From: Oceanicola sp. S124
GTDB lineage: Bacteria > Pseudomonadota > Alphaproteobacteria > Rhodobacterales > Rhodobacteraceae
DNA length: 39,572 nt
Assembly (NCBI RefSeq): GCF_000220565.1
Contig: NZ_AFPM01000232.1
Location: 1-39,572, forward strand
Reading direction: 5' to 3'
Part shown: in pieces, positions 4,970 through 39,572 of the stretch
How the letters are laid out: each line of letters starts with the position of its first letter
Numbering within the stretch: position 1 is the first letter of the stretch
Program-made: the position numbers and the translations under genes
Notes under the pieces: generated by a model
Database searches by the model: none
What the model was told of the DNA's origin: nothing
The model's input: only the letters and a program-made list of their open reading frames with translations

Positions 4970-6541
4970 ATGCGCAAGGCGCCGCTGCCCCTGCCCCAAG
5001 GGCCGCATGGTCCGCATCCCCTGGCCCGGCTGCTGGAACGCCAGCCGCTGTTCCTGCTGCTGTTCGGCGCGCTCTGCCTGTCGATGCTGGTGCCCGCGGC
5101 CCTGGCGCTCGGGATGGAGGAACACGCCACGGCGCGGGCCTTCTTCTACAGCGCCCTGCTGGGCACGGCGCTGGCGGTGATGATCGGCCTGGCCCGTGGC
5201 GGTCGCGATGCCGCGGTCACCGGGCGCGAGGATCTCTTCGCGCTGCTGGCGCTCTTTGCCGCCTTCCTGCTGCTGCCCCTGCCGCTGGCCGTGCCCTTCG
5301 CCGAGAGCCTGCCCGACACCCGTTTCCTGAATGCCTATGTCGAGATGGTGTCGAGCTTCACCACCACCGGCATGTCCTTCTACGACGACCCGCGACGCCT
5401 CTCGGCGCCGCTGCACCTGTGGCGCGCGCAGGTCGCCTGGATGGGCGGCTTCATGATCTGGGTTTCGGCGGCGGCGGTCATGGCGCCGCTGTCGCTGGGG
5501 GGCTTCGAGATCACCGCCGCCGGCCGCGACGAGGGCGAGACGCGGATCTCGCGCTTCCAGCGGGCCGGGGTGATCCGCCGCGTGCTGAAGGGCGCCACGC
5601 GCCTCGGGCCTATCTACCTCGGGCTGACGGCGGCGCTCTGGCTGGCGCTGCTGGTGGCGGGGGACCGGCCGCTGGTCGCGCTGATCCACGCCATGTCGAC
5701 GCTGTCGACGTCGGGCATCTCGCCGGTCGGCGGGCCGACCCACGCCGGCTCCGGTGTCGCCGGAGAGGTGATCATCGCCGCCTTCCTGCTGTTTGCCCTG
5801 TCGCGTGTCGCCTTCTCGTCCGACACCGTCACCGCCCGCATCGGCCTGCACCGCGACCCCGAGTTCCGCATGGGCCTGGCGCTGGTCGCCGTGGTGCCGC
5901 TGCTGCTGTTCCTGCGCCACTGGGCCGCCGCCTTCGAGGTGGCCTCGGGTGAAAACCTCGGGCTGGGCTTCGGCGCCCTCTGGGGGGCGGTCTTCACCGT
6001 GCTGTCCTTCATCACCACCACAGGCTGGGAAAGCCTGCACTGGGAAACCGCGCAGAGCTGGTCGGGGCTGGAAACCCCCGGCATGGTCCTGATGGGCCTG
6101 TCGCTGGTCGGCGGCGGCGTCGCCACCACGGCGGGCGGGGTCAAACTGCTGCGGGTCTATACCCTCTACCTGCAGGGCCGGAGGGAGCTTGACCGGCTGG
6201 TCCACCCCTCCTCGGTCTCGGGCAGCGGCATCGCCGGGCGCCGCATCCGCCGACACGGCGCCTTCCAGGCCTGGGTCTTCTTCATGCTCTTCGCCCTCTG
6301 CCTCGCCGCCTGCATGTTGATCCTCGCCGCCTTCGGCATCTCCTTCGAGGACGCCACGGTGCTTTCGGTCGCGGCACTGGCCAATGCCGGCAACCTTGCC
6401 GTCCATGGCGGCAGCGATCCGGTAGCGCTGCTGGAGCTGGGCGACGGCGCCAAGCTGACGCTCTGCGCCTTCATGATCCTCGGCCGGCTCGAGCTGCTGG
6501 CCATCCTTGCCCTGTTCAATCCGGCGCTGTGGCGCGAGTGA
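4970..6541 (+). CDS. trkH: TrkH-family potassium uptake channel subunit
   Basis: A 523-residue polytopic inner-membrane protein, the potassium-conducting partner of TrkA. Multiple hydrophobic segments are evident. Selectivity-filter-like loops of the SKT superfamily are recognisable: SSFTTTGMSF (about residue 126), STLSTSGISP (about 244), SFITTTGWES (about 346) and a fourth, degenerate one near ALANAGN. It starts 9 bp after trkA. The 131-bp gap before hfq is the first place a new promoter could lie. The first ~20 residues are rich in proline and basic residues and probably cytoplasmic. Confidence 0.93.
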   Translation: MRKAPLPLPQGPHGPHPLARLLERQPLFLLLFGALCLSMLVPAALALGMEEHATARAFFYSALLGTALAVMIGLARGGRDAAVTGREDLFALLALFAAFLLLPLPLAVPFAESLPDTRFLNAYVEMVSSFTTTGMSFYDDPRRLSAPLHLWRAQVAWMGGFMIWVSAAAVMAPLSLGGFEITAAGRDEGETRISRFQRAGVIRRVLKGATRLGPIYLGLTAALWLALLVAGDRPLVALIHAMSTLSTSGISPVGGPTHAGSGVAGEVIIAAFLLFALSRVAFSSDTVTARIGLHRDPEFRMGLALVAVVPLLLFLRHWAAAFEVASGENLGLGFGALWGAVFTVLSFITTTGWESLHWETAQSWSGLETPGMVLMGLSLVGGGVATTAGGVKLLRVYTLYLQGRRELDRLVHPSSVSGSGIAGRRIRRHGAFQAWVFFMLFALCLAACMLILAAFGISFEDATVLSVAALANAGNLAVHGGSDPVALLELGDGAKLTLCAFMILGRLELLAILALFNPALWRE

Positions 6542-6581
6542 CGCAACCCGGCGCGACGGCGAAACTATTGCGAGATGGGGG

Positions 6582-6610
6582 TGGAAACTTCTTCCGGGCG
6601 CGCCCATAAT
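6582..6610 (+). promoter_or_regulatory. Possible sigma70-type promoter for hfq-hflX
   Basis: TGGAAA (6582-6587), 17 bp, then CATAAT (6605-6610) lies 63 bp before the hfq ATG in a stretch more AT-rich than its surroundings. The -10 box is good and the -35 box weak. This is inference from spacing only. Confidence 0.35.
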
Positions 6611-20838: not shown

Positions 20839-21111
20839 ATGCTGCGCTATGCCCTGATCCTTTTTGCCCTGCCCGCCATGGCACAGGAGGCCCCGCCCCT
20901 GAAGCCGATCGAGTGCTACTGCACCGATCGACAGGGCGACCGGGTCGAGCTGGGCGAGACCATCTGCCTCAGCGTCGATGGCCGCAGCTACCTTGCGCAA
21001 TGCCAGATGTCGCTGAACGTGCCGATGTGGCGCGAGGTGGGGCCCTCCTGCCTGTCGTCGCGCGATCTGGACACTGAGCGGGGGGCTGGCCCCCCGTCAG
21101 CCGAAGGCTGA
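20839..21111 (+). CDS. Small secreted cysteine-containing protein of unknown function
   Basis: A 90-residue protein with a signal peptide (cleavage near LPAMA|QEA) and a mature part KPIECYCTDRQGDRVELG, then ETICLSVDGRSYLAQC and SLNVPMWREVGPSC. Five cysteines fit disulphide bonds in the periplasm. Similar short proteins are familiar from Rhodobacteraceae genomes next to prfA, but I know no function. The last ~13 residues (from TERGAGPPSAEG) are read from the 3' repeat element, and the stop lies inside its second hairpin, so the native C-terminus may be near SSRDLD. No ribosome-binding site is visible, in keeping with a leaderless transcript. Confidence 0.72.
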   Translation: MLRYALILFALPAMAQEAPPLKPIECYCTDRQGDRVELGETICLSVDGRSYLAQCQMSLNVPMWREVGPSCLSSRDLDTERGAGPPSAEG

Positions 21112-21146
21112 CTCCCCCGCAGTATTTGCAGCCATCGGATAGAGGG
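21080..21146 (+). repeat. Copy 2 of 3'-end AGTATTT repeat/terminator module
   Basis: Two perfect hairpins, GGGGGG-CTGG-CCCCCC (21080-21095) and GTCAGCC-GAA-GGCTGAC (21096-21112), are followed by CCCCCGC, AGTATTTGCAGCCATCGGAT (21121-21140) and AGAGGG. It overlaps the end of the small secreted gene and faces copy 3 across about 14 bp. Confidence 0.75.
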
Positions 21147-21159
21147 AATTGGCACCCTG

Positions 21160-21215
21160 CATCCATCCGAGGGCCAAAAATACTGCCGCCGGAGGCTTCG
21201 CCCCTGCAGGGGGCG
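21160..21215 (-). repeat. Copy 3 of 3'-end AGTATTT repeat/terminator module
   Basis: On the minus strand, 12 bp after the agmatinase stop: a CCCCTGCAGGGG hairpin (21212-21201), GCCTCCGGCGGC, then AGTATTTTTGGCCCTCGGAT (21184-21165) and GGATG. It forms an inverted pair with copy 2, so each copy terminates one of two convergent genes. Confidence 0.75.
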
Positions 21216-21226
21216 AACTCCATGGT

Positions 21227-27000: not shown

Positions 27001-28429
27001 ATGAGCATCGCCTTCCCCTTCGACAATACCTTCGCCGCCCTGCCCGAGGGGTTCTTCCTGCGCCAGCCGCCGCGCGCAGCCAGCGCGCCCGAGCTGCTGG
27101 CCTTCAACGCGCCCCTCGCCGCCGAGCTTGGCATGAGCGGCGAGGCCCCGCCCGAGGAGCTGGCGCAGGTCTTTTCCGGCAACCAGCTGCCGGAGGGCGC
27201 CGACCCGCTGGCCCAGGCCTATGCCGGGCACCAGTTCGGCGGCTTTTCCCCTCAGCTTGGCGATGGCCGCGCGCTGCTGATCGGCGAGGTGGTGGACCGG
27301 ACCGGCCAGCGGCGGGATATCCAGCTGAAGGGTTCGGGGCGTACCGCCTTTTCACGCGGCGGCGACGGGCTGGCCGGCATAGGGCCGGTACTGCGGGAAT
27401 ACCTGGTGTCCGAGGCGATGGCGGCGCTTGGCGTGCCCACGACGCGCTCCCTGGCCGCGGTGGCGACGGGGGACACGATCTACCGAGAGACCGCCCTGCC
27501 CGGCGCCGTGCTGACCCGCGTCGCCAGCTCTCACCTGCGGGTCGGGCATTTCGAGTTCTTCGCCGGGCGGCGCGATCCGGCGCGGATGCGGGTGCTGATG
27601 CATCATGCCATCGCGCGCCATGATCCGCAGGCAGACGGGCCGCTTTCCTTCCTCAAGGGTGTCATCGCCCGGCAGGCCGAGCTGGTGGCGCAGTGGCTGT
27701 CGCTCGGCTTCATCCACGGGGTGATGAACACCGACAACACGACGATTTCCGGCGAGACCATCGACTACGGCCCCTGCGCCTTCATGGATGGCTACCATCC
27801 GCAGACCGTGTTCTCGTCCATCGACCGGCAGGGGCGCTATGCCTATGACAACCAACGCCATATCCTGCCCTGGAACATGGCGCAGCTGGCCTCGGCGCTG
27901 CTGCTGCTGGAAGAGGATGCCGAAGCGCAGGTCGAAGCCTATACCCAGGCCGTCCATGCCATGCCGGGCCTGATCGACGCCGCCACGCTGCGGCGGTTCG
28001 GGCAGAGGCTGGGGGATCGCCGAGGCGGATGAGGCCGACCGGGGGCTGATCGAGGCGCTGCTGAGCCTGATGCAGAACGAGGGCGCCGATTTCACCAATA
28101 CCTTCCGCGCGCTTGGCGAAGATCCCGGACGGGCTGAAACCATGTTCAGCGACACTACCGCCTTCACCGCCTGGCGCGGCGACTGGGAGGCGCGGATCGC
28201 CCGGGAAGAGGCGCCGCAGGATCTGATGGCCCGGGTGAACCCCGCCGTGATCCCCCGCAACCACCGGGTGGAAGCAGCGCTTGCGGCAGCGCACGAGGGC
28301 GACCTTGCGCCGTTCCGCGACCTGCACCGGGTCCTGGCGACTCCGTTCTCGCTGGCCGAGGCAGACAGTGCCTATGCCGCCCCGCCGCGCCCCGGCGAAG
28401 AGGTGCAGGCCACCTTCTGCGGCACCTAG
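27001..28429 (+). pseudogene. selO: SelO / YdiU family protein adenylyltransferase, frameshifted
   Basis: SelO is a pseudokinase-fold enzyme that AMPylates protein Ser/Thr/Tyr. The first frame (27001-28032) carries the N-terminal [41 protein letters not shown] and the active site NTDN...DYGPCAFMD. It then runs [14 protein letters not shown] and stops. Removing one G from the GGGGG at 28011-28015 continues into [18 protein letters not shown] and on to MQNEGADFTNTF, ending with the family's C-terminal TFCGT at 28429. The rejoined protein would be 475 residues, the normal length. So either a recent single-base frameshift or a sequencing error in a homopolymer. The first product would lack about 130 residues. 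Confidence 0.85.
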
Positions 28430-32787: not shown

Positions 32788-32890
32788 AATTGAAGGCCGC
32801 ACGGTCTGACGATTGATCCCCGCGACCCATCCCGAAACAATATTGCGCAGAGAATGCCGCAATGGACATTCTGTAACGGGAGGAAACACG

Positions 32891-33982
32891 ATGAAACTTC
32901 AGACCGGCGCCATCCTGGCGCTGCTCGGGGCGGGCATGGCCCATGCCGGTGGCACCGAGCGCACCCCGCAATCCGCAATGATCCTCTACCAGAAGGGCAA
33001 CCTGGTAGAGCTGAGCTTCGGGCATGTCATGCCGCATCTTTCGGGACAGATGGCCGACAGCAATCCCTCGGGGGACATCGCCAACGACTTCAATTCGCCC
33101 TCGCTGTCGCTGAAGATGGATGTCAGCGATACGCTGGCCCTGGCGCTGATCCTGGACAAGCCCTGGGGTTCGGATATCGAGTACGGCCCCTCCAGCGCGG
33201 TGCTCGACGGGCAGCGCGCCATTGCCGACACCAGCGCCGCGACGATCCTCGGCAAGTACCAGCTCAACAAGAACGTCAGCCTCTTCGGCGGCCTGCGGAT
33301 CCAGCAGTCCGGCGGCTCGACGATCCTTGACGGGGCAGCCTATGCCAGCCTGCCGGCGCAGCCCTACGAGGTGACCTTCGCGGATCAGACCGCCCTCGGC
33401 TACGTGCTGGGCGCGGCCTACGAGATCCCGGAACGTGCCATGCGGCTGGCCCTGACCTACAACTCGGAGATCCACTACGACTATCCCACGGTCGAGACCT
33501 TCAACGGCGCCTCCTTCGGCGCCTCGACCGATACCGCCAGCGTCACGCCGCAATCGGTGAACATCGACTTCCAGCACGCGCTGGACCGGCGCACGATCCT
33601 GACCGCCTCGGCCCGCTGGGTCGAGCACTCGGCCTTCCAGCTGACCCCCAGCGTGCTGAACCGCGACCTGGTGAACCTGAACGACAGCACCACCTACCGC
33701 ATCGGCATCGGCCGGGCCTTCAGCCAGAAGCTCTCGGGCTCGCTGACCTATGCCTTCGAGCCGAAGGTCGACCAGGATGCCTCCTCGACCTCGCCCTATG
33801 ACGGCTACAAGCAGCTCTCGCTCGGACTCAGCTACAAGGCGACGGACCAGATCGAGATCGGCGGCGGCCTCAGCTACCGGCGGTACAACGACGCCAATGC
33901 CACCGTCGGCGGCAGCACCGTCGGCCGCTTCGAGGACAATCACCTGACCGCGGTCGGGCTGAAAATGACCTACAAGTTCTGA
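32891..33982 (+). CDS. FadL/OmpP1/TodX-family outer-membrane transporter, paralogue 1
   Basis: A 363-residue outer-membrane beta-barrel of the family that imports long-chain fatty acids and other hydrophobic molecules. The signal peptide ends at GMAHA|GG. The mature N-terminus GGTERTPQSAMILYQKGNLVELSFG corresponds to the family's plug segment. Alternating beta-strand patterns follow, including LGYVLGAAYEIPERAMRLALTYNSEI and the C-terminal strand TAVGLKMTYKF, ending in Phe as typical of BamA substrates. GGGAGGAAACACG precedes the ATG. The next gene is a close paralogue. No fatty-acid degradation genes are nearby, so the cargo is unknown. Confidence 0.9.
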   Translation: MKLQTGAILALLGAGMAHAGGTERTPQSAMILYQKGNLVELSFGHVMPHLSGQMADSNPSGDIANDFNSPSLSLKMDVSDTLALALILDKPWGSDIEYGPSSAVLDGQRAIADTSAATILGKYQLNKNVSLFGGLRIQQSGGSTILDGAAYASLPAQPYEVTFADQTALGYVLGAAYEIPERAMRLALTYNSEIHYDYPTVETFNGASFGASTDTASVTPQSVNIDFQHALDRRTILTASARWVEHSAFQLTPSVLNRDLVNLNDSTTYRIGIGRAFSQKLSGSLTYAFEPKVDQDASSTSPYDGYKQLSLGLSYKATDQIEIGGGLSYRRYNDANATVGGSTVGRFEDNHLTAVGLKMTYKF

Positions 33983-34018
33983 GACTCCGCCCCCGGAACC
34001 GGCCGGGGCCGACCAGGA

Positions 34019-34054
34019 GGCGGCAGGGCAAGTCCCTCTGCCGCCCCGCTTTTT
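34019..34054 (+). terminator. Intrinsic terminator after fadL-type gene 1
   Basis: GGCGGCAG (34019-34026) pairs with CTGCCGCC (34038-34045), with further G/C pairing inside, followed by CCGC and TTTTT (34050-34054). It implies the two paralogues are transcribed separately. Confidence 0.8.
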
Positions 34055-34217
34055 CCGCAGCGCGGCATAAAAGGGACCCAATTTCCGCGCTGCGGAAAGT
34101 CAAATTCCGCCTGTCGGTATGTCCATCAGGCCACAGTGCGACGGAAATAACGTCACGTTACGTAGGCTTCCCCCAACGTCAACTTTCTGGGCCAATTGCC
34201 GCAGGGCATTCTGCGGC
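34052..34217. promoter_or_regulatory. Cluster of dyad operators upstream of the second fadL-type gene
   Basis: Three 17-bp sites: TTTCCGC-AGC-GCGGCAT (34052-34068), TTTCCGC-GCT-GCGGAAA (34082-34098, perfect) and ATTCCGC-CTG-TCGGTAT (34104-34120), 30 and 22 bp apart. The first two also form a 14-bp perfect inverted repeat (34052-34065 with 34085-34098). Further down are TAACGT-C-ACGTTA (34148-34160) and GCCGCAG-N6-CTGCGGC (34198-34217). TGCCGCAGGGCATTCTG (34197-34213) resembles 32855-32873 before paralogue 1. Confidence 0.6.
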
Positions 34218-34265
34218 TCTAGGCTTCGATTACGCAGGTGCAAACCTGAGTTGGGAGGAGACATC

Positions 34266-35369
34266 ATGAAACTGCAAGCCGGCGCCCTTCTGGCGCTTCT
34301 CGGCGCAACGACTGCCCACGCGGGCGGGATCGAGCGCTCCAGCCAATCCGCAATGCTGCTCTTCGCCGAAGGTAACCGGTTCGAGCTCAGCTTCGGCTCT
34401 GTCGACCCGTCGCTGACCGGCGTCGACGCCACCGCCAACAGCATTTCCGACGTCGGCAAGGGCTACACCCTGCCCAGCTTCGGGCTGAAGATGGACGTGA
34501 CGGATCGCGTGGCCCTGGCCCTGATCTACGACACCCCCTTCGGGGCGGATGTCGAGTATGACTACGGCGGGGCGAACCAGATGCTGAACGGCACTGCCGC
34601 CCAGGCGGACGTGCGCGCCCTGACCCTGCTGGCAAAGTACCAGGCCACGGACCGGGTCAGCGTCTACGGCGGTATCCGCCACCAGAACGCCGAGGGCGAG
34701 ATCACCCTGGACGGCTTGGCCTACGGCGGCCCGCCGCCGGCCGGTCTTTCCGGCTACTCGGTCGAGCTGAACGACGGCTCTGGCACCGGCTACGTGCTGG
34801 GCGCCGCCTACGAGATCCCCGACATCGCCTTCCGCCTGGCGCTGACCTACAACTCGGAAATCAGCCATGACTTCGACACCGTCGAATACGGTCTGGCCGC
34901 TTCCGGCATTCCCGGCACGCTGACCTCGAAGACCCCCGAGAGCTGGCATCTCGAATTCCAGAGCGGCATCGCCGAGGACACGCTGCTGATGGCCAGCATC
35001 CGCCACGTCAAGCATTCGCAGTTCAAGGTGCGGCCGCAGACCGCGAACCGCGACCTGGTCAGCCTGGAGGACAGCACGACCTACCAGCTTGGCATCGGGC
35101 GCCGCTTCACGCCGAAGCTGGCTGGCTCGATGAGCGTGGCCTACGAGAAGGGGGGCGACAGCCTCGTGTCTCCGCTGGCGCCGTCCAACGGCAAGACCCA
35201 GCTGTCCCTCGGCCTGAGCTACAAGGTCACCGAGGCGGTCGAGATCTCGGGCGGGATCAGCCATGTCTGGCTGGGGGATGCCCAGCCCCAGACGGCCGAT
35301 ACCCCGCGCGCCAGCTTCACCGACAACGAAGCCACCGCCTTCGGCCTGAAGATCGCCTACAGCTTCTGA
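34266..35369 (+). CDS. FadL/OmpP1/TodX-family outer-membrane transporter, paralogue 2
   Basis: A 367-residue outer-membrane barrel clearly duplicated from the preceding gene. Shared blocks include MKLQ-GA-LALLGA, QSAM-L--GN--ELSFG, GYVLGAAYEIP, LALTYNSEI, NRDLV-L-DSTTY--GIGR and QLSLGLSYK. The signal peptide ends at TTAHA|GG and the last residue is Phe. GGGAGGAG precedes the ATG. Sequence has diverged widely outside the shared blocks, which suggests a different cargo or phage-receptor escape rather than simple dosage (inference). It has its own operators and terminator. Confidence 0.9.
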   Translation: MKLQAGALLALLGATTAHAGGIERSSQSAMLLFAEGNRFELSFGSVDPSLTGVDATANSISDVGKGYTLPSFGLKMDVTDRVALALIYDTPFGADVEYDYGGANQMLNGTAAQADVRALTLLAKYQATDRVSVYGGIRHQNAEGEITLDGLAYGGPPPAGLSGYSVELNDGSGTGYVLGAAYEIPDIAFRLALTYNSEISHDFDTVEYGLAASGIPGTLTSKTPESWHLEFQSGIAEDTLLMASIRHVKHSQFKVRPQTANRDLVSLEDSTTYQLGIGRRFTPKLAGSMSVAYEKGGDSLVSPLAPSNGKTQLSLGLSYKVTEAVEISGGISHVWLGDAQPQTADTPRASFTDNEATAFGLKIAYSF

Positions 35370-38703: not shown

Positions 38704-39572
38704 ATGACCATGCACGAGAGCGTCTCCGTCGCGCTTCTGATCCCCGGCCTGCTGGGGGTCGGTCTTGTTGTCGGCGCTGTGCTGACCCTGCTGCGCGCCC
38801 GGCACCGCGCGGCCCGTCGCGCCGCCCGCTGGCCGGCCCAGGGCCGCATCCTGCACATCGAGGGTCAGAGGCTGCATGTCCTGCAACACGGCCCCGCCGA
38901 GGCCCCCTCGGTGGTGCTGCTGCACGGCGCCTCGGGGAACCTTCGCGATCAGCAGATCTCGCTGATGCCGGGGCTGCTGGCGGCGAGGTTCCGCGTCACG
39001 CTCTTCGACCGGCCCGGGCTGGGGCATTCGCTGCCCTGCATGCCCGGGCTGACCCTGCGCCGCCAGGCCGAGCTGATGGATGCGGCCTGTGCCGAGCTTG
39101 GCCTGGGGCAGGTCGTGCTCTGCGGCCAGAGCTTCGGTGGCGCGGTCGCGGCCTGCTGGGCGGCCTATTGCCCCGGGCGTCTGGCCGGGCTGGTGCTGAT
39201 CGCCGCGCCTGTCTTCCCCTGGCCACCGGTGATCAAGCGCCACTTCCGGCTGATGGCGCGCCCGGTGATCAGCCCGCTGATCGCCTGGCTGCTCACCGCC
39301 TGGATGCCGGAACGGCGCCTGCTGGAAGAGCTTGCGCCGCAGTTCGCCCCCGACGCCATGCCGGACGACTACCTCGCCCGCGCCGGCTCGGCCCTGTCGC
39401 TGCGCCCCGCCTCGCTGCGCGCCGACGCCCGCCAGCGCGTCCGGCTGGTCCGCGACCAGCAGCTGATGGTCACGCGGATGCCCGGGCTGGCGATGCCGGT
39501 CGAACTGGTCCAGGGGATGCGCGACCAGACCGTGAAGCCCGAACGCCACGCCGAGCCCCTGCGCGCCGAGAT
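38704..39572 (+). CDS. Alpha/beta hydrolase, N-terminally membrane-anchored, paralogue 2 (3' end missing)
   Basis: The first 289 residues of a hydrolase running off the right edge. Residues about 7-30 form a membrane anchor (SVALLIPGLLGVGLVVGAVL). HGASGN, RPGLGHS and the nucleophile elbow GQSFGGA (Ser143) are present. Layout and local sequence match the preceding gene (GQSFGG-VA--WA, LVLIAAPVFPWPP against MALAATPAYPWLP, and VEL-QG--D--VKPE), so the two are tandem duplicates. GGGAGGGAG precedes the ATG. The catalytic histidine would lie just beyond the edge. Substrate unknown. Confidence 0.88.
   Translation, partial: MTMHESVSVALLIPGLLGVGLVVGAVLTLLRARHRAARRAARWPAQGRILHIEGQRLHVLQHGPAEAPSVVLLHGASGNLRDQQISLMPGLLAARFRVTLFDRPGLGHSLPCMPGLTLRRQAELMDAACAELGLGQVVLCGQSFGGAVAACWAAYCPGRLAGLVLIAAPVFPWPPVIKRHFRLMARPVISPLIAWLLTAWMPERRLLEELAPQFAPDAMPDDYLARAGSALSLRPASLRADARQRVRLVRDQQLMVTRMPGLAMPVELVQGMRDQTVKPERHAEPLRAE

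Follow-up and report, generated by a model that had tools for sequence, protein, structure and literature searches.

The closest described system to the locus analysed here is the SelO/YdiU protein adenylyltransferase (Pfam PF02696; PDB entries 6eac, 6iii, 6k20 and 9jym). The sections of PMC8097203 that describe the protein name Asn253 and Asp262 in the P. syringae enzyme, and report a SelO structure with a regulatory disulphide, Cys272-Cys476. selO knockouts are described as viable in E. coli and yeast, E. coli without SelO survives pyocyanin less well according to PMC12663964, and the ydiU variant in PMC6137255, the paper found when SelO/ydiU was searched together with frameshifts, is a substitution. 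A literature search on frameshifts in Pseudooceanicola genomes returned nothing. For frame breaks seen in one genome only, the reference class is that of the singleton frameshifted genes of PMC3711429, whose text on this class regards such breaks as probable products of indel mutation or of errors in sequencing, with the latter expected for singletons that BLASTp validates.

The draft genome behind the window (the whole stretch of DNA analysed, 39,572 nucleotides) comprises 4,649,474 bases on 339 contigs and is 91.66% complete; the window is its contig C108. The genus is taken as Pseudooceanicola, since G016, a genome listed in the same genus as this one, has the SelO translation of P. antarcticus (L033). 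Its selO starts at 27001 and reaches a TGA at 28030-28032, giving a 343-residue open reading frame (ORF list and translation), and the remainder of the gene lies in the next frame. The features of the locus are as follows.

27001 to 28032, plus strand: selO 5' ORF, 338 residues matching relatives, followed by five out-of-frame residues and TGA.
28011 to 28015, plus strand: G run, one base longer than in the closest relatives by alignment, and site of the frame break.
28016 to 28429, plus strand: 137-residue 3' part of selO, read in the next frame and conserved up to the TFCGT end.
28070 to 28429, plus strand: mechanical 119-residue ORF from the ORF list, within the selO 3' part.

The 5' ORF matched the Pfam SelO profile over positions 7-326 of 466 (E 5.5e-88, 296.2 bits, cut-off 22.8), and the 3' part matched positions 346-464 at 20.9 bits, below the 22.8 cut-off. 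A search of the whole draft genome with the same profile gave two matches, 27019-27954 (profile 7-326) and 28031-28333 (profile 346-464), which are in different frames and are the halves of one gene. Nucleotide-site motifs were all located in the 5' ORF: QLKGSGRT from residue 108, MNTDN (D245, N246) and IDYGP (D255), with K110 counted among the nucleotide-site residues on the presumed role of this lysine. The locus thus carries the profile match and the nucleotide-site motifs of SelO and lacks a full-length single frame with the C-terminal part, stopping at 28032 against 475 residues in four close relatives. The SelO of G009, the closest relative found, aligns with PDB 6eac chain A over residues 6-468 (E 2.8e-95), whereas the window gene, unlike SelO/YdiU, is broken at codon 338, with its C-terminal 137 residues out of frame. 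The 28070..28429 ORF, searched alone against Pfam, gave no match at E 0.001, and no evident ribosome-binding site was seen by eye upstream of its start, the earliest one listed that would read the 3' part. Translation restart at the stop was considered and rejected; an ATG at 28029-28031 overlaps the TGA, but is out of the frame of the 3' part.

Window and G009 share 92.0% DNA identity over 1429 columns with one gap. In alignments of the window with G009, P. antarcticus (L033) and the loci L006 and L007, the sole gap is a single base where the G run begins. The run counts five G in the window, four in G009 and three each in L033, L006 and L007, and all four relatives have an intact 475-residue ORF. 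The first-pass annotation had proposed, from the window itself, that one extra G in a G5 run splits selO, and the alignments confirm this at 28011-28015. They agree as well with its placing of the break after about codon 337 and of the stop at 28032 (codon 337 covers 28009-28011, and the run takes in the whole of codon 338, 28012-28014), and with its suggestion that one G fewer would restore a 475-residue frame to TFCGT, that being the length in the four relatives, with the next frame ending at 28429. Within selO, no second, frame-restoring indel was found against any of the four relatives, and beyond the gene the alignment with G009 shows no further indel until 29843.

Differences from G009 were counted by codon position in the phase of G009, and at positions 1/2/3 numbered 9/6/54 ahead of the break and 5/3/35 after it. 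Since the differences concentrate at position 3 on both sides, the two pieces belong to a single gene. When P. antarcticus served as outgroup (10 and 11 sites being ambiguous), changes on the window's own lineage were 4/4/27 upstream and 1/0/9 downstream, and those on the G009 lineage were 5/3/17 and 2/3/17. Sequence that had long escaped selection should have accumulated numerous changes at codon positions 1 and 2; because the 3' part lacks these, the break is either very young or not real. By its codon-position pattern, protein-level selection acted on the 3' part until very recently, or still acts on it, and the observation that both halves are conserved is borne out by the 1/0/9 of the 3' part. 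The same pattern bears on the reading of selO as an old pseudogene, already replaced or dispensable, which would account for a broken frame, but which has against it the constraint on the 3' part, the lack of a further lesion inside the gene relative to the four relatives, and the failure of the profile search to find a second selO copy in the draft (the missing part of which could hold one, at 91.66% completeness); this reading is extremely improbable.

The occurrence of the break elsewhere was surveyed in 60 genomes, of which 41, the window's own included, have a match, and in all 40 of the others the gene is open, with 467-855 residues at the match. A set of 109 loci, consisting of 29 from this survey and the best 80 of 589 confirmed stretches, and probably containing P. 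antarcticus twice (as L005 and L033), was read from the best match onward. In this set the frame of 108 loci stays open as far as the counterpart of residue 440 or beyond, and one, L081, runs off its contig; none of the 109 is split between frames, and none is known to be from the window's species.

These counts weigh directly on two mechanisms in which the break would be functional. Phase variation, with the G run gaining and losing bases so that SelO is switched on and off within the population, would fit a break that sits in a homopolymer and a 3' part that is conserved, yet the run is of only five G, in a window with 99 G/C runs of at least five on the plus strand (five long in 85 cases, six in 13 and seven in one), the four relatives carry an intact gene with four or three G there, and the off-state was seen in none of the 109 related loci (29 plus the best 80 of 589), so that a tract varying between relatives together with on and off states was not found. 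To our knowledge, SelO is not a typical variable surface function. Its targets in the literature are metabolic and redox enzymes, which also counts against switching of this kind, and phase variation is considered very unlikely. Programmed +1 frameshifting or transcriptional slippage, yielding a short and a full-length SelO, could likewise explain the conservation of both halves, but the site is not conserved, the examined relatives need no shift, and by eye there is no stop codon right at the shift point. In its passages on programmed events, PMC3711429 gives as their mark a shift site that is conserved within clusters of at least five genes, and places programmed transcriptional slippage often at homopolymers of at least eight or at two shorter ones combined; the locus has none of these marks, and neither break nor shift site is conserved in the homologues (0 of 109 split, 29 plus the best 80 of 589). 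A programmed shift is accordingly rated highly improbable. Just as hard to credit is the variant with a genuine extra base, where slippage within the run still yields full-length protein and this species makes two forms of SelO.

The split of selO is, then, very probably due to an isolated slip of one base within a short run of G, in an otherwise normal gene and in one genome record, with no designed frame switch. The first-pass annotation had offered a very recent event, an artefact, and programmed slippage or phase variation side by side; the first two are favoured by the constraint on the 3' part and by the fact that no examined relative shares the break, and the last two are disfavoured by the five-G run, its unconserved length and the 0 of 109 split loci (29 plus the best 80 of 589). 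Window selO resembles the singleton frameshifted genes of PMC3711429 in being an isolated break in a single genome with intact homologues, and differs from them in nothing tested; the explanation is an ordinary one.

To assess how error-prone the assembly is, the window and four other stretches of the same genome were aligned to G009, giving 80,163 aligned bases on five contigs. The four were the longest of ten, with L130 and L132 taken whole and L126 and L128 represented by their G009-matching ends only (9,222 and 5,700 bases). Aligned pieces were counted only if longer than 600 columns and above 75% identity, a filter that drops window positions 32878-33495 (66%) and 38780-39570 (73%), and indels separated by fewer than 90 bases were treated as one group. 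Gene-by-gene indel counts were left out, as they are confounded by long antisense ORFs in this G+C-rich genome. Across the 80,163 bases there were 27 pooled frame-changing indel groups, which by ORF and match coordinates comprise 24 intergenic groups (the placements of L130 7747-7891 and 8202-8354 being less certain), two near contig ends, and selO. The script flagged two groups as lying within one coding phase, selO and 6577-6601, and the latter was rejected as a genic frame break and counted among the 24 intergenic groups, as it falls after the gene that ends at 6541 (presumably trkH-like). One-base frame-changing differences from G009 occur at base 10 of L130 (C250) and base 18 of L132 (C320), beside or inside genes, and are probably edge effects.

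An error-ridden assembly is therefore not borne out in this sample, where, besides selO, only contig-end indels touch or adjoin genes. The small number of genic frame changes, despite the commonness of G/C runs, speaks against a strongly homopolymer-prone assembly, and not against a single error: there is little sign of a systematic homopolymer problem, though a draft may easily contain one isolated error. A rate of the selO type would be compatible with real, fresh pseudogenes or with errors, in either case a few tens per genome. Among all the readings, a consensus or assembly error in an intact gene has close to an even chance, and a genuine, very recent indel a chance somewhat short of even.

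Comparison with G009 and G016 gave two observations elsewhere in the window. Two adjacent, similar ORFs, which we take to be outer-membrane-protein-like, occupy 32813..33982 and 34119..35369 (32813-35369). G016 aligns across both, and G009, whose two matches leave about 1.5 kb of the window uncovered between them, seems to hold only one at this place and may have lost the other. A short intergenic stretch, 21080-21221, has many matches in G009 and G016, and looks like a member of a dispersed intergenic repeat family that these genomes have in common.

If the extra G is genuine, we infer that it was added by replication slippage, too recently for the 3' half to have decayed; with only 1/0/9 changes in the 3' part on the window lineage, a real loss must sit very late on the branch. 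The product would then be of 343 residues, with the nucleotide-site motifs and without the C-terminal 137 residues, including the equivalent of G009 Cys473. As predicted from sequence, such a protein would probably be inactive or unstable and its function lost. Because E. coli without SelO shows lower survival of pyocyanin, as noted above, cells would be expected to survive the loss of selO, but with lower resistance to stress. The break itself matters little, being either a flaw of the draft genome or a fresh loss of a gene that E. coli and yeast can live without. A genuine break that is fixed in the strain would provide a natural selO truncation in which to ask whether SelO has a role under oxidative stress in this genus.
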